A stretch of DNA of 64,000 nt from Actinomycetota bacterium (GCA_027315345.1 DAHUYE010000090.1:48241-112240), one strand, 5' to 3'. Positions 3,600 through 63,996 are shown, counted from the stretch's first letter. Notes: generated from the sequence alone by a model not told the origin. A program made the numbers and translations.

Positions 3600-5222
3600 C
3601 TAGCGGCGGCCGCTCCTCTTGGAGGGTGGCTCGGCCGGCGCCGGGCTCTTCTGGACCGCGGCCGCCTTCTTGACGGCCGGAGCTTTCTTGACGGCCGGAG
3701 CCTTCTTGGTGGCAGGAGCTTTCTGGGTGCTCGGAGCCGCGGCCTTCTTGGGGGCCGGAGCCGCCTTTTTGGATGAAGCCGCCTTCTTGGCCGAACCCGG
3801 CCCCGGTGCCTTCGTGGCCGGAGCCTTCTTGGCGCCCACCGACTTCGTCGCCACCGCCGCCTTCTTGGCCGGAGCCGCCGCCTTCTTGGCCGGAGCCGCC
3901 GCCTTCGTGGCCGGAGCCGCCGCCTTCTTGGCCGGAGCCGCCGCCTTCTTGGCCGGAGCGGCCGCCTTCTTGGCCGGAGCCGCCGCCTTCTTGGCCGGAG
4001 CGGCCGCCTTCTTGGCCGGAGCCGCCGCCTTCTTGGCCGGAGCCGCCGCCTTCTTGGCCGGAGCCGCCGCCTTCTTGGCCGGAGCCGCCGCCTTCTTGGC
4101 CGGAGCGGCCGCCTTCTTGGCGGTCGCCACCTTCTGAGTGGCTGCGGTCTTCCTGACGGTCCTGGATTGGGCCGGGGCCTTCCCGGCGGCCGACTTCCTG
4201 CCCCTCCCCGAGCCGGACTTCTCCCCCGCCGGTTGGGACTCGGCTATCTCCGCCTCCACCGTCTCGTCCTGGGGGGAGCCGGAGACGTGGGCGAAGCCGG
4301 GCAGAGCCAGTTCGATCCCCCGCCGCTGGGGGTCGAGGGCCTGGAGGACGAAGCTATGCCGGTCTCCCCGGTTGAGGATCTCCCGGGCGCTGCGGGGCGG
4401 CGGATCGCCCATTCCGGCCAGGGGCAGGTAGCACTTGGCCCCCTGGGCGGTGATGAAGCACCCGTGGGAGGCGAAGCTGTCAACCTCGCCCTCGACCTCG
4501 GAACCGAGCGGGTGGTCAGCGATGAACTGGATGAAGGTCAGCGGGTCGTTGAGGGCCTCGGGAGGGGGTCCTGCCCCCCGGCGGCGGCGCCGGCGGCCGG
4601 AGCCGGGCGCCTCCGGGGAGACCACCTCCTCGGTGGCGGCGGCGATGGCGTCGGACAGGCCGGCTTTGGGCCGGGACGTGCCTGTGGCGGCTCCGGGCCG
4701 GGGCGGGGGCGCCTTGGGCACCGGCATGGGCCGGCTGGCCTCCTTGGAGCCGATCCGGACCCGGGTCTTGCGCGCCTCGCGCATCGAATCCCGGCTCTTG
4801 GGGCCCCGGACGGGGTTCCGGGGCGTGAAGATCCACCCTATGCCGGGGACCGGCTTGCCCCCGATCAGGCGGTCCTTGGTGAAGAGCCACTCGTACTCAC
4901 CGTGGAACTCCTGGAAGGAGTCGTTGGACAGGACGGTGGCACCGGAGCGATCGGCGATGCGCAGGAGGAAGGCGTCCCCGCGCCCGATGGCGCCGGCAGG
5001 GGGAGAGACCATCTCCCCGTGGGCGACGGCATCATCGAAGGCCGACCGCTCCGAGTTGTCTATCCGGTGGCCGAAGGTGGCATCGACCACCACGGTGATC
5101 TCGGCGTGGGGAAACTCATTATGGAACTCGCGCACGGCTTCATCGAGCTGGGCGAGACTGGGGATCGAACGGCCCTCGGTGGCGATGTTGGACCCGTCGA
5201 CCACTACGTGGGTGAACGGCAT
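3600..5222 (-). CDS. NYN-domain (Zc3h12a-like) ribonuclease with S1-like domain and Lys/Ala/Pro-rich histone-H1-like C-terminal tail
   Basis: N-term HVVVDGSNIATEGRSIPS, VVVDATFGHRID, SNDSFQEF (NYN/PIN-like acidic residues); mid EGEVDSFASHGCFITAQGAKCYLPLAG (S1-like); tail (AAAPAKK)n. GTG at 5249 is an alternative start. Confidence 0.82.
   Translation of the reverse strand: MPFTHVVVDGSNIATEGRSIPSLAQLDEAVREFHNEFPHAEITVVVDATFGHRIDNSERSAFDDAVAHGEMVSPPAGAIGRGDAFLLRIADRSGATVLSNDSFQEFHGEYEWLFTKDRLIGGKPVPGIGWIFTPRNPVRGPKSRDSMREARKTRVRIGSKEASRPMPVPKAPPPRPGAATGTSRPKAGLSDAIAAATEEVVSPEAPGSGRRRRRRGAGPPPEALNDPLTFIQFIADHPLGSEVEGEVDSFASHGCFITAQGAKCYLPLAGMGDPPPRSAREILNRGDRHSFVLQALDPQRRGIELALPGFAHVSGSPQDETVEAEIAESQPAGEKSGSGRGRKSAAGKAPAQSRTVRKTAATQKVATAKKAAAPAKKAAAPAKKAAAPAKKAAAPAKKAAAPAKKAAAPAKKAAAPAKKAAAPAKKAAAPAKKAAAPATKAAAPAKKAAAPAKKAAVATKSVGAKKAPATKAPGPGSAKKAASSKKAAPAPKKAAAPSTQKAPATKKAPAVKKAPAVKKAAAVQKSPAPAEPPSKRSGRR
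3859..4110. repeat. 21-bp tandem repeat (gccttcttggccggagcSgcc), 12 units, coding for AAAPAKK heptapeptides
   Basis: Read directly: 12 contiguous 21-bp units, near identical, with one gtgg variant in unit 3 and ccg/cgg variation; a degenerate 13th unit follows at 4111-4131. Confidence 0.95.
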
Positions 5223-5337
5223 GTTCCGGGTAGTCAAGCATCCAGCCACCCCGGGAGTGGGTGACCGGGGCAGCCTTTACCATGGTCAGCCAACCGGTCA
5301 GAACCGGCTACGGAGCGTCAGGGAACAGGGAGCGGGG

Positions 5338-5949
5338 ATGATCAGGGCAGCACTGTTCGACTTCGGCGGGGTCGTCCTGTCGAGCCCCTTCGAGGCCTTC
5401 GCCCGCTACGAGGCCGTCCAGGGTCTGCCCCCCGGATTCCTCCGGGGCCTCAATGCCACCAACCCCGACACCAATGCCTGGGCCCGGCTGGAGCGCAGCG
5501 AGGTCCTCTTCGAGGAGTTCTGCCTCCTCTACGAGGAGGAGGCCGCCCAGGCCGGGGGCTCCATCGACGCCCGCCAGGTCATGGCCCTGCTGGCCGGGGA
5601 GCTGCGCCCGGCCATGGTCCAGGCCGTCAAGCGTTGCCGGGAGCGGCTCAAGACCGCCTGCCTGACCAACAACTTCGTCACCGGCCCCGGGTCACGCCGG
5701 ATCGGGATGGACGAGATGTTCGACGCCGTCATCGAGTCCAGTCGGGTGGGAGTGCGCAAGCCCGATCCCCGCTTTTACACCTTGGCCTGCGAGATGCTGG
5801 AGATCGAGCCCAGCGAGGCCGTCTTCCTGGACGATCTGGGCGTCAACCTGAAGCCGGCCCGGGAGATGGGGATGACCACCATCAAGGTGGAGGACCCCGA
5901 CATCGCCATCAAGGCGCTGGAAGAGGTGGTCGGCTTCTCCCTGAGTTGA
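5338..5949 (+). CDS. HAD-superfamily hydrolase (HAD-IA)
   Basis: MIRAALFDFGGVVLSS, ACLTNNF, VGVRKPDPRFY, AVFLDDLGVNLKPAREMGM; start ATG after cagggagcgggg. Confidence 0.9.
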   Translation: MIRAALFDFGGVVLSSPFEAFARYEAVQGLPPGFLRGLNATNPDTNAWARLERSEVLFEEFCLLYEEEAAQAGGSIDARQVMALLAGELRPAMVQAVKRCRERLKTACLTNNFVTGPGSRRIGMDEMFDAVIESSRVGVRKPDPRFYTLACEMLEIEPSEAVFLDDLGVNLKPAREMGMTTIKVEDPDIAIKALEEVVGFSLS

Positions 5950-55884: not shown

Positions 55885-58800
55885 CTAACGAAAATCCCGG
55901 GACGGGGCGGCGGCGGTGGCGATGTCCAGGGCCTCTATGCGCCTCACCACCAGGGCGATGGCTCCCTCGTTGCGCTCCAGGTCGGCCCGGATGAGCAGGG
56001 CCGGGGCCGTCCTGGCCACCTTACGGAAGCGGGCCCAGACCCCGACCGAACAGATGGCGTTGACCATCCCGGTCTCGTCCTCCAGGTTCAAGAAGATGGT
56101 CCCCCCGGCCGTGGCCGGGCGTTGGCGGTGGGTCACCACCCCTCCGAAGGTGACCTTGGCCCCGTCGGGCAGGCCGGCCAGGGAGGCGGCCGGAACCGCC
56201 CCCACCTTGTCCAGGTGCTCACGGGCGAACTGGGTCACCGACCAGCGGGTGGACAAGCCCGTGGACCAAAGGTCGGCGGCCGCCTCCTCGATGTCGGTCA
56301 TGGGGGCCAGCCGGGGCGCCCGGCCGCCCGACACGATGCCGGGCAACTTCCCCGGCCCGGACCGGGACAGGGCCCCGGCCGCCCACAGCGCCTCCCGCCG
56401 CTCCAGACCGAATCCCCCCAGCGCCCCGGCCGTGGCCAGGGCCTCCAGCTGAGGTTCGGATAGGCCGGCCCGGTGGGCCAGGTCTTCGGGGCTGGCATAA
56501 GGGCGCCCCGACGCCACTTCCTTGGCCTTGTCCTCCCCCAGATTGCGGACATAGGACAGCCCCAGCCTCACGGCAGGCTCACTCCCCTCCAGGGTGCACT
56601 TCCAGTCGCTGGCGTTGACGTCGGGGGCCAGGACGGTCACCCGGTGGCGGCGGGCATCGGCCACCAGGGTCTGGGGCGACCAGAAGCCCATGGGCTGGGC
56701 GTTGAGCAGGCCGGCGTAGAAGGCGGCCGGATAATGCAGCTTGAGCCAGGCGCTGGAGTAGACGAGGTAGGCGAAGGACACCGAATGGCTCTCGGGGAAG
56801 CCGAAGTTGGCGAAGGCGGCCAGCTGGGACCAGATGGCGTCGGCCACCTCCCCCACCACCCCCCGCTCGGCCATGCCCGCGTAGAGACGGGCCTTGAGGG
56901 CCTCCATACGCTGGGCGGATCGCTTGGATCCCATGGCCTGGCGTAGCTGATCGGCCTCCGAGGCGCTGAAGCCGGCCACGTCGATGGCCATCTGCATGAG
57001 CTGCTCCTGGAAGAGCGGCACCCCGAGGGTCTTGGCCAGGCTGCGCTCCAGCAACGGGTGGAGGTAGGTCACCTTCTCCTGTCCGTTGCGCCGGCGAATG
57101 TAGGGATGGACCGATCCCCCCTGAATCGGGCCGGGCCGGATGAGGGCCACCTCCACCACCAGGTCGTAGAAGGTCCGGGGCTTGAGCCGGGGCAAGGTGG
57201 CCATCTGGGCCCGGCTCTCGACCTGGAACACCCCCACCGAATCGGCCCGGCACAACATCTCATAGACGGCTTCTTCCTGATCCAGCTGGCCCAGATCGAG
57301 GGTGATCCCGTAACGGGCCTCGACCATGCCGACGGCTTCGTGCAGAGCCGAGAGCATCTGCAGGCCGAGCAGGTCGAACTTCACCAGGCCGACGGCGGCG
57401 CAGTCGTCCTTGTCCCACTGCAACACGGAGCGGTTGGGCATCCTCGCCCACTCCACCGGGCACACCTCCACCACCGGCCGGTCACAGATCACCATGCCGC
57501 CAGAATGGATGCCGAGGTGGCGGGGGAAGCCCTGGATCTCCTTGGCCAGATCCATCACCGGTTCGGGCACGTCGGTCTCGGCCGGGCCGGGCATACCCGA
57601 CCACATGTCCATCTGCTTGGACCAGGCATCGAGTTGTCCGGGGGGATAGCCCAGGGCCCGGCCCATGTCCCGCACCGCCGAACGGGGCCGGTAGGTGATG
57701 ACGTTGGCCACCTGGGCGGCCCGCTCCCGCCCGTAGCGGTTGTACACGTACTGGATGGCCTCCTCCCGCCGGCCGGCCTCGATGTCCACATCGATGTCGG
57801 GGGGCCCGTCCCTCTCCGGCGAAAGGAACCTCTCGAACAACAGCCCCAGCTTCACCGCATCGGCGGCGGTGATGCCCAGGGCGAAGCACACCGCCGAGTT
57901 GGCCGCCGACCCTCTCCCCTGACAGAAGATGTCGCTCCTCCTGCAGAACTGCACGATGTCCCACACCACCAGGAAATAGCCGGGGAAACCGAGCCTTTCG
58001 ATGACCTCCAACTCGTGGTCGATCTGCCTCCACGCCCCGTGAACCTCTTCCGAACCCCTCGGGCCGTAGCGCTGCGTCGCTCCCTCGTAGGTGAGCAGGC
58101 GGAGGTAGTCCATCTCGCTGATGCCATCCGGTGTCGGCCAGTCGGGCAGCCTGGGCGCCACCAGCTTCAGGTCAAAGGAGCAGGCGTCGGCCACCTCGGC
58201 CGCCCTTTCCACCACGCCGGGGTAGCGCCGCATCCGCCTGGCCTGATCGGCGCCCGAGCGCAGGCAGGCCCCGGTGGAGGCGGGCAGCCAGCCGTCCATC
58301 TCGTCCAGGCTGCGCCGGGCCCGGACCGCGGCCATGGCGGCGGCCAGGCGGGCCCGGTCGGGCGTGGCGTAATGGACGTTGTTGGTGGCCACCATCTCCA
58401 ATTGACGCCGGCCGGCCAGCTGGACGAGGGCATCGTTGCGGGCCGAATCCAACGGGTCCCCGTGGTCCCACAGTTCGACCAGCACGTTGGTGGGGCCGAA
58501 CACGTCCACCAGGCGGTCCAACTCACGGCCGGCGGCGGCCGGACCCTCCTCGACCAGGGCACGCGGCACCGCCCCCTTCCGGCAACCGGTGAGCACCATC
58601 CAGTGTCCGCCGTGGTGGGAACCCAACAGATCCAGGTCGGCCAGGGGCCGGCCCTTCTCCCCTCCTCTCATCTGAGCCTCGGTGATGGTGCGGGACAGCC
58701 GGGCGTAGCCCTCCGGGCCTTTGGCCAGGAGCAGCACGTGACTGCCCTCCGGATCGGCCAACGCCGTGGTGTGGCTGGACCGGGACAGGCCCAATGTGAG

Positions 58801-59148
58801 CTCGGCGCCGAAGACGGTGGGCAGTCCGGCCGCCCGGGCCGCCTCGGAGAAGCGGACCACCCCGGCCAGGTTGTCATGGTCGGTTACGGCCAGGGCCGAG
58901 AGACCCAGCTCCACTGCCCGGTCCACCAGCTCATCGGGATGCGACGCCCCGTCCAGAAAGCTGAAGTTGGAGTGGCAGTGAAGCTCAGCGTATTGGGTGT
59001 GAGGGTGACGGGTTGTGCTCTCGCGCCGGGCGCCTGAGTCCCGTCCGCGGCGTCTGGCGTAGACGGCCAGGGGTTCGGGACTGGTGCTGGTGCCCCCCAA
59101 GCGGCTCTCCAGCTCCTTCCAGGGAACCGGTGGATTCCTCCAACCCAT
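55885..59148 (-). CDS. dnaE2: Error-prone DNA polymerase (C-family)
   Basis: 1087 aa; PHP domain YAELHCHSNFSFLDGASHPDELV; catalytic GPPDIDVDIEAGRREEAIQYVYNRYG; FGFPESHSVSFAYLVYSSAWLKLHYPAAFYAGLLNAQPMGFW. Confidence 0.96.
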   Translation of the reverse strand: MGWRNPPVPWKELESRLGGTSTSPEPLAVYARRRGRDSGARRESTTRHPHTQYAELHCHSNFSFLDGASHPDELVDRAVELGLSALAVTDHDNLAGVVRFSEAARAAGLPTVFGAELTLGLSRSSHTTALADPEGSHVLLLAKGPEGYARLSRTITEAQMRGGEKGRPLADLDLLGSHHGGHWMVLTGCRKGAVPRALVEEGPAAAGRELDRLVDVFGPTNVLVELWDHGDPLDSARNDALVQLAGRRQLEMVATNNVHYATPDRARLAAAMAAVRARRSLDEMDGWLPASTGACLRSGADQARRMRRYPGVVERAAEVADACSFDLKLVAPRLPDWPTPDGISEMDYLRLLTYEGATQRYGPRGSEEVHGAWRQIDHELEVIERLGFPGYFLVVWDIVQFCRRSDIFCQGRGSAANSAVCFALGITAADAVKLGLLFERFLSPERDGPPDIDVDIEAGRREEAIQYVYNRYGRERAAQVANVITYRPRSAVRDMGRALGYPPGQLDAWSKQMDMWSGMPGPAETDVPEPVMDLAKEIQGFPRHLGIHSGGMVICDRPVVEVCPVEWARMPNRSVLQWDKDDCAAVGLVKFDLLGLQMLSALHEAVGMVEARYGITLDLGQLDQEEAVYEMLCRADSVGVFQVESRAQMATLPRLKPRTFYDLVVEVALIRPGPIQGGSVHPYIRRRNGQEKVTYLHPLLERSLAKTLGVPLFQEQLMQMAIDVAGFSASEADQLRQAMGSKRSAQRMEALKARLYAGMAERGVVGEVADAIWSQLAAFANFGFPESHSVSFAYLVYSSAWLKLHYPAAFYAGLLNAQPMGFWSPQTLVADARRHRVTVLAPDVNASDWKCTLEGSEPAVRLGLSYVRNLGEDKAKEVASGRPYASPEDLAHRAGLSEPQLEALATAGALGGFGLERREALWAAGALSRSGPGKLPGIVSGGRAPRLAPMTDIEEAAADLWSTGLSTRWSVTQFAREHLDKVGAVPAASLAGLPDGAKVTFGGVVTHRQRPATAGGTIFLNLEDETGMVNAICSVGVWARFRKVARTAPALLIRADLERNEGAIALVVRRIEALDIATAAAPSRDFR

Positions 59149-59161
59149 CGTGCGAACATAT

Positions 59162-59177
59162 ACGAACAGTTGTTCGT
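59162..59177. promoter_or_regulatory. LexA/SOS box of dnaE2: ACGAAC-AGTT-GTTCGT
   Basis: Perfect 6-bp inverted arms with 4-bp spacer, core CGAACN4GTTCG as in actinobacterial LexA boxes; one base from the dnaE2 -10 (TATGTT, minus strand, 59155-59160). Confidence 0.88.
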
Positions 59178-59252
59178 GTGCTAGTTGATGCGGATAAGAG
59201 CAATGACAACCCCAGGCAGGACTAACCCGGGCCGGCGGGGAACTGGAAGACC

Positions 59253-60809
59253 ATGGTCCGCGGCGTTCTCCTGACGGCCGCGGCCGGTCTGACCGCCCTG
59301 GGGATCATGGCGGTGCCGGCTCCGGCCCGCGCCTCGGCAGGACCGGCACCGGGCAGCCCGGCCTACCTGGCCCGGGACGCCGCCAACATCGAGAACGCCT
59401 TCGGGCGCGACCTCGGCCCGGGCGGGGAGTTCACCAGCCCGGCCTACTTGTCCGGCCTGCCCCCGGCCATGGCCCAGACCTGGCTGGCCCAGATGTCCTA
59501 CCAGGCCGCCCACCCGGCCGATCCCTCCCTGACCGGGGGGAACCTGGTGCCGGGCTGGAACGCCGGTAACCCGGATCGGTCCGATTGGGCCGGGACCCGG
59601 GGCCGGGAGCTGGCCATCCACTTCGCCGCCGCCGACGGAGCCGTCCTGTCCGGGCATCTCTTCGCCCCGCTGGCCCACGCCCGGGATCCGTACACCCACC
59701 TGCCCATCGCCTACCCGCTGCCGGGAGTGGTGATCACGACGGGGTCCATCCAGGCCTCGGCCGGCGTCTACAGCTGGCTGGCCGAGGATCTGGCCGAGCG
59801 GGGCTATCTGGTTCTGACCTTCGACGTGCAGGGCCAGGGCACCAGCGAGACCTTCCCCCACCAGGGCCCGGACGCCGGCCTGCCCGGCTGCGGCTCCTCT
59901 GCGACCACCGGCCAGGCCACCGCCTGTGCCGGCGTGCCCTCCGAGCAGCAGATGAACTTCGATGAGGACACCGAGGACGCCATCACCTTCCTCCTCTCCA
60001 GCCCGGCCCACCCGTATCCCAAGACGCCGACGGCAGCCCCGGTGGCGGCCTACAACCCGTGGTGGCAGTTCTTCGACCACAGCCCCGACCGCCACACCGT
60101 TACGCCCGGGCGCACCACCCGGGTCGCCCTGATCGGGCACTCGACCGGGGCCGTGACCACCTCCTACCTGCAGGGTGTCGACCCGCGCATCGAGGCGGCC
60201 GTGGCCCTGGACAAGATCACCGCCACCCCCGGCGCCATCAGCGACGACCAGGCCGAGCTCGGCTCCCTGCCGGGACCGGTCGTGCCCAAGGTGCCCATTC
60301 TCGGGATGCAGTCCGAGTACGGCTTCGAGCCCCAGCCCTACTGGGAGGCGAGCTGTTCGTCCTTCGAACCCTGCCCGGCGGCTCCGGGCGGCTCGGCCGC
60401 GCCCCCCGATCTGTCCCAGGCTCCCAACCCGCGCCGGGAGGAGCAGACCGGCTTCGACACCTGGGTGGCCCGCGGCGTCGACTCCATGCTCATCGTCCCC
60501 CGGGCCTCGACCCATCTCGACTACACCGATGAGCCCCCGATCCTGCCCGCCTCGGCCTGGGGACAGGCCATGGCCAGCTACTACACCCAGGCCTGGCTGG
60601 ACCAGTACCTCAAGCACGAGCCGGGCGCCGACCAGAGGCTGCTGGCCACCACGCTGGCCTATCTCCAGCCGGTGGGCGGAGACGTGTGGAAGCCCATCAC
60701 CATCAACCGCAACGCCGACCTTTCCTTCTACTTCTGCTCCGGCTACGACTTCCACATCGGAAGCCACCGGGCTCAGAACACCGACCTGGTCGGTGACGGC
60801 TGTAGCTGA
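59253..60809 (+). CDS. Secreted alpha/beta-hydrolase family protein
   Basis: N-terminal signal MVRGVLLTAAAGLTALGIMAVPAPARA; LVLTFDVQGQGTSETFPHQG; ALIGHSTGAVTTSYLQG (GxSxG); TG-ATG with ggaag RBS. Confidence 0.88.
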   Translation: MVRGVLLTAAAGLTALGIMAVPAPARASAGPAPGSPAYLARDAANIENAFGRDLGPGGEFTSPAYLSGLPPAMAQTWLAQMSYQAAHPADPSLTGGNLVPGWNAGNPDRSDWAGTRGRELAIHFAAADGAVLSGHLFAPLAHARDPYTHLPIAYPLPGVVITTGSIQASAGVYSWLAEDLAERGYLVLTFDVQGQGTSETFPHQGPDAGLPGCGSSATTGQATACAGVPSEQQMNFDEDTEDAITFLLSSPAHPYPKTPTAAPVAAYNPWWQFFDHSPDRHTVTPGRTTRVALIGHSTGAVTTSYLQGVDPRIEAAVALDKITATPGAISDDQAELGSLPGPVVPKVPILGMQSEYGFEPQPYWEASCSSFEPCPAAPGGSAAPPDLSQAPNPRREEQTGFDTWVARGVDSMLIVPRASTHLDYTDEPPILPASAWGQAMASYYTQAWLDQYLKHEPGADQRLLATTLAYLQPVGGDVWKPITINRNADLSFYFCSGYDFHIGSHRAQNTDLVGDGCS

Positions 60810-60884
60810 TCTCCCCCACTCCTAGTCTCCCCGGTAAACAGGATTGAGATCGAGATAAAGCTCTAATCGATGCACCGGCGTTGA

Positions 60885-61259
60885 TCAGCAGTCCACCACG
60901 GCGATAGCCGGGTCCAGACCCTCCAGGTCAGCCCGGTCAGAGCTGATAACGGTGGCCCCGTGGCGGCGAGCCGCCAGCACGACGGAGGCGTCGATCACGT
61001 CACTCGTGCCCGTCGCACCACAGAGCACCCCTGCCGCCCGGGCCGCTACATGGGTCAGCGGATCGACCACGACGTCCCTGGCGTTGAGCAGCCTCGCCAA
61101 CCTGACCTGGCGCCCGCCCCCTCGCCAAACTTGGCCCACCACGCCCGCGGGCACGATCACGGCGCGGTGATCCAGGCGCGCCACCTCGATGACAGCGGCG
61201 GTGGAACGATCGCCCCGCTCCACCGCTATCAGGGCTCCGGCGTCAAGGATGAGGCTCAA
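60885..61259 (-). CDS. PIN-domain (VapC-like) toxin
   Basis: MSLILDAGALIAVERGD; VDPLTHVAARAAG; DVIDASVVLAARRHGATVISSDRADLEGL (PIN acidic residues); 4-bp overlap with the antitoxin. Confidence 0.88.
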   Translation of the reverse strand: MSLILDAGALIAVERGDRSTAAVIEVARLDHRAVIVPAGVVGQVWRGGGRQVRLARLLNARDVVVDPLTHVAARAAGVLCGATGTSDVIDASVVLAARRHGATVISSDRADLEGLDPAIAVVDC

Positions 61260-61498
61260 GGCTGCTCGGCCAGCGCCAGGCGCTGACGAGCTTGGGCGAG
61301 CTCCTCGTCCGTCAGTGGTCCGCCCGTCTCGTCGAATAGTTGGGCCAATACGGCAGCGAGGTCCTCACCTTCTACCCGCGCCCGCCCGGCCTCATTGAGC
61401 CAAGCGCTCAGGGACTTCGCCCTGCCCTGAGCAACATCTAGGCGGGCCCGCTCGGCAACGGCGGGCTCCAGACTCACGGTCACCTTGGTCACGGTCAT
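61256..61498 (-). CDS. VapB-like antitoxin
   Basis: 80 aa MTVTKVTVSLEPAVAERARLDVAQGRAKSLSAWLNEAGRARVEGEDLAAVLAQLFDETGGPLTDEEL (ribbon-helix-helix-like N-term) upstream of and overlapping the PIN gene. Confidence 0.82.
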   Translation of the reverse strand: MTVTKVTVSLEPAVAERARLDVAQGRAKSLSAWLNEAGRARVEGEDLAAVLAQLFDETGGPLTDEELAQARQRLALAEQP

Positions 61499-61504
61499 AC
61501 TTTT

Positions 61505-61510
61505 ACCTTA
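61505..61510 (-). promoter_or_regulatory. -10 element TAAGGT of the vapB-like gene, leaderless
   Basis: TAAGGT then 6 nt (aaaagt) to ATG at 61498; sits in a short GGTAAGGTAA direct repeat. Confidence 0.55.
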
Positions 61511-61701
61511 CCAGGTGCCCGGCCAACGGGAGCCACGTTGAGTCCTTGAGATGGGTGCGGTCCCCTCGCAAGCGTCCTTGCACCGAAGTCTGGACGATCT
61601 CGACCTGGGGCGGTGGTGCAGCGGGGTCGTCTTCGACTCCAGAGCGGCAGCCGAGCAACTGACTTCCGGACTGACGGTCGGCCGAGAACTCCGTGACGGC
61701 G

Positions 61702-63237
61702 TCAGTCGTAGACGGCTTCGACCGACCAGCACCCACCCTCGGCCGCCAGCAGGAAGGCCCGACCGTCATCGACGGCCACCTGCATCCAAGCCCGGCGACG
61801 ATGACCGTCGGGATCCCACCACCGCTCCTGACACGGCCAGGGGGCCGACCAGCCCCTTACGATCAGCTCCGGACCGCGAGAGGGACGGAGCCGGGCCGGT
61901 GCGCCGCTGGGTTCGGCCCGGCTATTGACCATAACCGGACCACCTCGGGAGTCCTCCAGGGCGATGGAGCCGCCCGGCGCACCGGTGAGGGCGGGGGCGG
62001 GGGGAGGTATGCGGCCCGGCCAGGGCAGCTCGGGGCGACGCCGGGGGGCGCGTTGGTCGCCCCAGGGGACGAGGGTGGCCCGTTCGATCGGGGACCGCCC
62101 GCCATCCAGGACGGCGGTGAGTACGCGGTCAGGCCCGATCATCGACTGCACCCGGGCCAGGACCCGGGCCGCCTGCTGGTCGGCTTCGGCCATCCCGCCC
62201 CAGAAGCCGAGCTGGGTGCCGTGGTCGGCCACCATCTCCTCGGGGATCAGGCGCAGCCTGGTCAACCCGGCCGTCGGCCGGGACGGCCCGGTCAGCCAGC
62301 CGTCCAGCTGCCATCTCACCCGCTCGGCCAGGGTGGCGGCGTTGAAGGTGCCGTCGTGACGCCAGATCCGGGACAGGGATTCCCCGTGCTCGGATTCGGC
62401 CTCGATGCGCACCAGCGTGCAGCGCCAGCCGCCCTCGACCAACCCGGCATAGAGGCGGTCGGCCAGTGCCTTGGCCACGAAGGCAGCCGTGTCAACCCGT
62501 TCCACCGGCGGATCCAGCTCGTCCTCCACTGACAGATCCTCGGGCGGCTGGCGGGCATCCAGCTGCCTCTCGTCCAGGCCCCGGGCTAGACGGTGAACAG
62601 CCGCTCCCTCCCATCCGAACCGGCTCAGCACCTGGGGGGCCGGCAGGGCGGCCAGCTGCCCCAGCGTCCTCACCCCCAGGCGTTCCAGGAGGTCGGCCAG
62701 TTCGGGCCGGCCCAGTTCACGGACGGAAAGGGGGGCCAGGAACTCCGCGGTGGCCCCCGGCGGCACGATCCGGCCCCGGCGGGCGGCCAGGGTCCCGGCA
62801 AAGGGACCGTCGGCCACCCCCACCCGGCACCCCTCTCCCCCGGTCCCGGACACCGCCGCCGTGGCCGTGGCTGCGTCGACCGACTCGGCCACCTGGCGGG
62901 CGAGAGACTCCTCCCCCCCGAAATAGCGGGCCGGGCCCCGGGCCGCAAAGGCGCACAGACCCGGCCGTATAACCTCCACGGTGGGGCAGAAGCCGGCCAC
63001 CGCCGCAACCAGGGGTTCGAAGGCCCGGGCGTCGCGGTCCTCATCCCGGCCCACGACGGACAACCCGGGACAGGCCGCCTCGGCCTGGCGCCTTCGCTGT
63101 CCGATCCGGACCCCCTCAGCCCGGGCCTGGGCCGAGGCGACCACCACCCGGTTGGCATGGATGACCACCACCGGGCCGGCCACACCACTGGCCACCACCG
63201 GCCAGTCCGGGCACCAAACCACCACACTCCTGGTCAC
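61702..63237 (-). CDS. imuB: ImuB: Y-family polymerase-like mutasome subunit
   Basis: VVWCPDWPVVASGVAGPVVVIHANRVVVASAQARAEGVRIGQRRRQAEAACPGL; DLLERLGVRTLGQLAALPAPQVLSRFGWEGAAVHRLARG; internal QLGFWG resembles a beta-clamp-binding motif; overlaps imuA' by 4 bp. Confidence 0.93.
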   Translation of the reverse strand: MTRSVVVWCPDWPVVASGVAGPVVVIHANRVVVASAQARAEGVRIGQRRRQAEAACPGLSVVGRDEDRDARAFEPLVAAVAGFCPTVEVIRPGLCAFAARGPARYFGGEESLARQVAESVDAATATAAVSGTGGEGCRVGVADGPFAGTLAARRGRIVPPGATAEFLAPLSVRELGRPELADLLERLGVRTLGQLAALPAPQVLSRFGWEGAAVHRLARGLDERQLDARQPPEDLSVEDELDPPVERVDTAAFVAKALADRLYAGLVEGGWRCTLVRIEAESEHGESLSRIWRHDGTFNAATLAERVRWQLDGWLTGPSRPTAGLTRLRLIPEEMVADHGTQLGFWGGMAEADQQAARVLARVQSMIGPDRVLTAVLDGGRSPIERATLVPWGDQRAPRRRPELPWPGRIPPPAPALTGAPGGSIALEDSRGGPVMVNSRAEPSGAPARLRPSRGPELIVRGWSAPWPCQERWWDPDGHRRRAWMQVAVDDGRAFLLAAEGGCWSVEAVYD

Positions 63238-63968
63238 AGGGTTCTTCGCCCCGCCGGGTCCCCTGCACCCCGGCTCCTCCGGACGGCGGGGGCCCCTGCC
63301 CCGCCGCCGGCCGTGGGCAACGTCAGAAGGGTGTCATCGACGGGTTCGGAGCGGCCGGATTCATCCGGGAGCCACAGGGCAGCCTGGCGGCGGCGGGAAG
63401 CGGCTCGACGGCCCCCGACGGCCACCTCCACCCGGCGCCGGGTCAGGCTGCCGTAGCCGGCCCCCAGGCCTTCCCACTCCCCCGCCACCACGTCCAGGGA
63501 AAGGTCACAGCCTTCGGGCCAAGGCGTCCCGGTGGCGATCAAGACCGAGGACTGGTGCCGGGCCCGGGCCGCCAGCCTCCGGGCTTCCCCCGGACGGGGC
63601 CGCAGGCGGCCGCCGAGGCGGACGGCCACCAGGTCGATGCCGTCCAGGAGGGCGGACACCACCGCCGGCCACTGCTCCCCGGGGTCGGGCACCAGGGCCA
63701 GGCGGCCCAGATCGACACCCATAGAGGCAGCCGCTTCGGGGCCGACCTCGGGCATCCCCACCAGGGCGGCCCAGGAGCCCTCCGCCGAGGCCCCGACCAG
63801 GAGGGCCAGCAGCAACGAGGTGGCCCCGGCCCCCGCGCTGATGGCGACGGTGCTTCCCCGGCGCAATCCTCCGGGCAGCAGGGGGGTCAGGGCGGGCGTG
63901 ACCGGAAGGGCGCGCTGGGCGGCCAGGGCGACGGGCCGGGCCCGTTCGAGAAGTTCCGCCACCTCCAT
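63234..63968 (-). CDS. imuA': ImuA' (RecA/SulA-like SOS mutasome accessory)
   Basis: Directly upstream of imuB, ALTPLLPGGLRRGSTVAISAGAGATSLLLALLVGASAEGSWAALVGMPEVGPEAAASMGVDLGRL; SOS box immediately upstream. Confidence 0.88.
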   Translation of the reverse strand: MEVAELLERARPVALAAQRALPVTPALTPLLPGGLRRGSTVAISAGAGATSLLLALLVGASAEGSWAALVGMPEVGPEAAASMGVDLGRLALVPDPGEQWPAVVSALLDGIDLVAVRLGGRLRPRPGEARRLAARARHQSSVLIATGTPWPEGCDLSLDVVAGEWEGLGAGYGSLTRRRVEVAVGGRRAASRRRQAALWLPDESGRSEPVDDTLLTLPTAGGGAGAPAVRRSRGAGDPAGRRTL

Positions 63969-63980
63969 GCCGCCAGCGTA

Positions 63981-63996
63981 TCGAACAGATGTTCGA
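63981..63996. promoter_or_regulatory. LexA/SOS box of imuA': TCGAAC-AGAT-GTTCGA
   Basis: Perfect palindrome matching TCGAACN4GTTCGA; abuts minus-strand -10 TACGCT (63975-63980) which lies 6 nt from the imuA' ATG. Confidence 0.92.

Follow-up and report, generated by a model that had tools for sequence, protein, structure and literature searches.

In actinobacteria, mycobacteria included, induced mutation is driven by mutagenesis that depends on DnaE2. Contiguous imuA-imuB-dnaE2 operons occur in many Alphaproteobacteria (PMC3901139), and split cassettes, in which imuA'-imuB and dnaE2 stand apart, are a recognised form described for mycobacteria (PMC6511836, PMC10421592, both citing Erill et al., 2006). 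In mycobacteria, PafBC is used as well (PMC10421592).

The locus described here lies in a window of 64,000 nucleotides (C7:48241-112240) of a 3.84-Mb draft genome in 106 contigs, whose host probably belongs to the class Acidimicrobiia, judging from named neighbours. The genes imuA'-imuB and dnaE2 are on one strand, and the 2.55 kb between the two halves hold a VapBC-type pair and a divergent hydrolase gene. All six open reading frames (ORFs) were recovered with the positions and strands given in the earlier note, and ORFs and profile matches agree with its placing of a same-strand VapBC-like pair and an opposite-strand hydrolase in the gap. The features are as follows.

63983-63994, minus strand: LexA box of imuA'-imuB, core GAACAGATGTTC (GAACATCTGTTC on the minus strand), a perfect palindrome just 5' of the imuA' ATG
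63234-63968, minus strand: imuA', ImuA'-type accessory factor (244 aa), NCBIfam NF058630, E 2.9e-49, 166.7 bits against a cut-off of 65
61702-63237, minus strand: imuB, Y-family-like protein (511 aa), Pfam IMS 5.5e-10, with relatives throughout the order
61256-61498, minus strand: candidate VapB-like antitoxin (80 aa), starting 203 bp beyond the imuB stop codon and accompanied by vapC in five other genomes (76-85% identity)
60885-61259, minus strand: VapC-like PIN-domain toxin candidate (124 aa), PF01850 8.2e-7, with homologues 77-84% identical in other families
59253-60809, plus strand: putative secreted alpha/beta hydrolase (518 aa), divergent from dnaE2, PF12146 at 28.3 bits against a cut-off of 27, 37 residues
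59164-59175, minus strand: LexA box of dnaE2, core GAACAGTTGTTC (GAACAACTGTTC on the minus strand), a perfect palindrome with its start 27 bp 5' of the dnaE2 ATG
55885-59148, minus strand: dnaE2, error-prone C-family polymerase (1087 aa), NF004225 at 1441.9 bits against a cut-off of 939

Profile searches identify the components of a mutasome, namely a DnaE2-type polymerase and an ImuA' adjoining a Y-family-like ImuB. DnaE2 has a PHP domain and the catalytic motif PDIDVDIE, and matches Pfam PHP, DNA_pol3_alpha, finger and HHH_6. The imuA' and imuB ORFs overlap by 4 nt. Read by eye, ImuB contains QLGFWG, similar to the mycobacterial clamp-binding motif, and the usual SIDEA-type motif is not seen in it.

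The locus consists of two separate units, each with a predicted LexA operator, and an opposite-strand hydrolase gene in between. It resembles the split cassettes of M. tuberculosis and M. smegmatis, in which the same three proteins are encoded in two transcription units, both under LexA control. In M. tuberculosis, however, the halves are about two dozen genes apart, as counted from locus numbers, whereas here the distance is 2.55 kb. Contiguous operons, present also in Micromonosporaceae and in both sister genera of this genome (locus comparison), have the same genes in the same order and strand, but differ by a single promoter, overlapping or near-touching imuB and dnaE2, and absence of a second box.

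That each half has its own SOS box, as proposed in the earlier note, is borne out by two perfect cores that form part of the LexA regulon of the genome. The chance of a perfect core in any 30-bp stretch is about 2e-4 from base composition. The motif GAACN4GTTC alone is weak evidence in a genome of 70% GC, with 58 sites genome-wide compared to 17 for the reversed control. The extended form CGAACN4GTTCG is found in 15 places (2 for the reversed control), including both mutasome boxes. Since further extended sites adjoin recA, lexA, ruvC, a DEDD exonuclease/UvrC-like gene and an Rv2578c-type radical SAM gene, CGAACN4GTTCG is taken as the LexA box of this organism; a sequence survey found a lexA gene and a LexA regulon in the genome.

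With the flanking C and G included, the boxes end 14 bp (dnaE2) and 13 bp (imuA') 5' of the start codons. The dnaE2 box is followed by GTATATG and the imuA' box by GATACG, both -10-like, and the geometry of the imuA' box and the position of the dnaE2 box are each conserved among relatives in the order. For 54 dnaE2 boxes of the order, the extended operator consensus is C-GAAC-N4-GTTC-G-ATA and the start of dnaE2 most often lies 26-27 bp away, which together place the operator just before the -10-like element. Because the operator and this element are so close to the start codon, transcription probably starts at or near it, giving leaderless messages. Consensus scans gave no sigma-70 promoters or terminators above chance, and no PafBC-like sites with up to two mismatches are present in the window.

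Two other boxes of the genome deserve mention. The ruvC start codon seemingly lies within its own LexA box (CGAACAGATGTTCG, with the ATG inside; contig C17, position about 115), which suggests an operator overlapping the translation start. Another LexA box lies 14 bp 5' of the start of a 111-aa protein that matches no NCBIfam entry (contig C48, position about 3951); its geometry is that of the mutasome boxes, and the gene is a candidate for a further SOS gene.

Regulation and function would follow the known scheme. LexA dimers on both operators would block both promoters, and damage-activated RecA would promote LexA cleavage, opening both together; promoter activity and co-induction in this organism are predictions from the operators. 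Clamp-held ImuB would then recruit DnaE2, with ImuA', for error-prone bypass. This protein mechanism comes from work on mycobacteria (PMC10421592) and is extended to the present proteins by family membership.

The earlier note regarded close but separated halves as unusual, recognising only contiguous operons or a distant dnaE2. This view fails within the order. The comparison covers 75 genomes of the same order from 32 families in which dnaE2 follows imuB on the same contig and the same strand. A gap of at least 396 bp separates the two genes in 57 of the 75 (median 4,357 bp, maximum 11,561 bp), a count that is not an unbiased frequency, since genomes were picked by imuB match and contig size. 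The split is the commonest layout among the order genomes examined, a known kind rather than a rare third arrangement. In an additional 19 genomes, the stretch downstream of imuB lacks dnaE2 for at least 9 kb. Of 110 loci, 109 have an intact imuA'-imuB junction, and lability therefore belongs to the imuB-dnaE2 junction.

A perfect LexA box precedes dnaE2 in 55 of the 57 split loci, 41 of these boxes lying at -24 to -31. Loci with shorter gaps have the box in 5 of 18 cases, and those with gaps of 20 bp or less in one of nine. The association between gap and second box, with a Fisher p of 6e-9 on raw counts, loses significance when phylogenetically independent pairs are compared (median p 0.22). 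Gap genes differ between families and have no common function. A hidden fourth component encoded in the gap was considered and rejected, as genes recur only in close relatives or belong to general families (amidase, MFS, two-component proteins). Six Pseudonocardiales metagenome genomes (L127, L131, L132, L137, L138, L160) have imuB-dnaE2 gaps of 1.2-4.1 kb with a common gap gene of about 290 aa, and most of these six loci are without a perfect box before dnaE2.

The order thus offers a continuous series from overlapping genes to same-strand gaps over 10 kb, in which almost all dnaE2 genes set apart from imuB are preceded by an operator of their own, mostly at a nearly constant distance from the start. 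Such a series allows testing how co-regulation survives operon breakage. It is the useful part of the comparison, the finding in the window itself being mostly ordinary.

The family of this genome is represented in the set by two other genomes, of sister genera G001 and G002. In both, imuB and dnaE2 overlap by 1 nt (TGATG, TAGTG), and there is neither a second box nor the hydrolase; the downstream ABC-transporter genes are identical in kind in all three genomes. The DnaE2 tree joins this genome to G001 (100/98), with AU rejecting a G001+G002 grouping (p 0.003). The ImuB tree also joins it to G001 (100/96), the G001+G002 grouping not being rejected (AU p 0.06), and the RpoB tree joins it to G002 (98/89; AU on G001+G002 p 0.14, not rejected). 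None of the three trees supports G001+G002, and RpoB and DnaE2 differ on the closest sister. On the 75-row DnaE2 tree, a two-state model reconstructs the family ancestor as contiguous with P 0.81 and without second box with P 0.77, and the order root as split with P 0.999 and with a box.

The VapBC-like pair has a history of its own. The two ORFs overlap by 4 nt, and a PIN-domain toxin with an adjacent small partner is the arrangement of type II VapBC modules, in which the PIN-domain protein follows a small overlapping partner gene. The partner here, however, is without family match: the VapB candidate has no Pfam or NCBIfam hit at 0.001, and thus no recognised DNA-binding antitoxin family, so the pair is called VapBC-like only. 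For VapC, no solved-structure relative was found by sequence. A block of exactly 614 bp is common to this genome and five genomes of four other families, at 74-78% DNA identity and with almost nothing shared outside it, and VapC identity across families (up to 84%) exceeds DnaE2 identity inside the own family. Judged by these sequences, VapBC is a horizontally shared mobile block. The hydrolase has a weak S33-type match, a GHSTG motif and, by eye, a signal-peptide-like N-terminus; among 298 genomes of the order, 12 have it, with a best match of 50%.

Taken together, the locus is read as a known split cassette with two predicted LexA-repressed promoters, probably re-split here by insertion, with dnaE2 regaining an operator (probability about 0.8). 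With imuB and dnaE2 contiguous in its two closest relatives, this genome probably acquired the gap through a recent insertion. A fuller version, at about even odds, is that of a toggling operon: the junction would have been fused on the family stem with loss of the operator and then re-opened by insertion in this lineage, a new LexA promoter of dnaE2 arising at the same -26/-27 position and dnaE2 relying from then on on its own operator. If this is true, the junction is a repeated natural experiment in regaining SOS control after leaving an operon.

Alternatively, the split could be ancestral, the order-wide layout and the dnaE2 operator having been kept here while G001 and G002 were each fused by deletion. 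This is a possible but doubtful account. It agrees with the modelled root, with the position of the dnaE2 box, which equals that in split relatives, and with the split state of G040, the nearest genome outside the family in DnaE2 trees; by plain parsimony, one fusion plus one re-split takes as many steps as two fusions. It fits poorly with the identical 1-nt stop/start overlap in both sisters, with a foreign VapBC and a hydrolase missing from both, with the contiguous and box-less family ancestor favoured by the model, and with a largely contiguous nearest sister clade in the 75-row tree. The earlier note had named relatives with ancestral spacing as the finding that would speak against an interrupted operon. 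Such relatives exist at order level, where 57 of 75 loci and the modelled ancestor are split, but not within the family, where both sister genera are contiguous. Interruption by insertion is accordingly upheld as probable within the family by the contiguous sisters and the mobile VapBC, but its direction is less firm, two sister fusions being the competing course. As to whether the second LexA site was retained or acquired, which the earlier note had left undecided, the model leans towards acquired or regained.

A further proposal places VapBC and/or the hydrolase within the SOS unit, with vapBC transcribed by read-through from imuB and the hydrolase, too, repressed from the dnaE2 box. The same-strand vapB begins 203 bp after imuB with no terminator-like site between, and the hydrolase ATG lies 76 bp from the end of the dnaE2 box. 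However, vapB has its own leaderless-type start (TAAGGTAAAAGTATG) and travels between genomes as an independent block of 614 bp, the -10-like element next to the box is oriented toward dnaE2 and away from the hydrolase, and gap genes of relatives are unrelated and evenly oriented (98 co-directional, 106 anti-directional), which makes the proposal unlikely. VapBC and the hydrolase appear to be passengers in the gap, nothing in their sequences linking either to the damage response.

An assembly artefact joining unrelated fragments is very improbable in spite of the draft state of the assembly and the foreign affinity of VapBC and hydrolase, for the locus is internal to a 298,723-bp contig, trees place both flanks with the family, downstream synteny is kept, and a gap of the same kind is found in 56 other genomes of the order.

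The two genes flanking the gap carry a direct repeat, noticed after the fact, with copies matching at 18 of 20 positions.

61697-61716, unstranded: direct repeat copy 1 (18/20), spanning the imuB stop codon
59048-59067, unstranded: direct repeat copy 2 (18/20), about 27 codons into dnaE2, in its variable N-terminal linker

The copies are 2,649 bp apart and in frame (AVYD*/AVYARRR), and an equal match was obtained in 0 of 1485 and 0 of 600 random window pairs. The repeat may be a recombination end, although a copy within dnaE2 does not follow from any simple model of insertion.

This genome may have received a second insertion 5' of imuA', since the gene directly preceding imuA' in G002 (81% identical) lies about 1.9 kb from it in this genome (L061, oriented 3879-5793), past the right end of the window.
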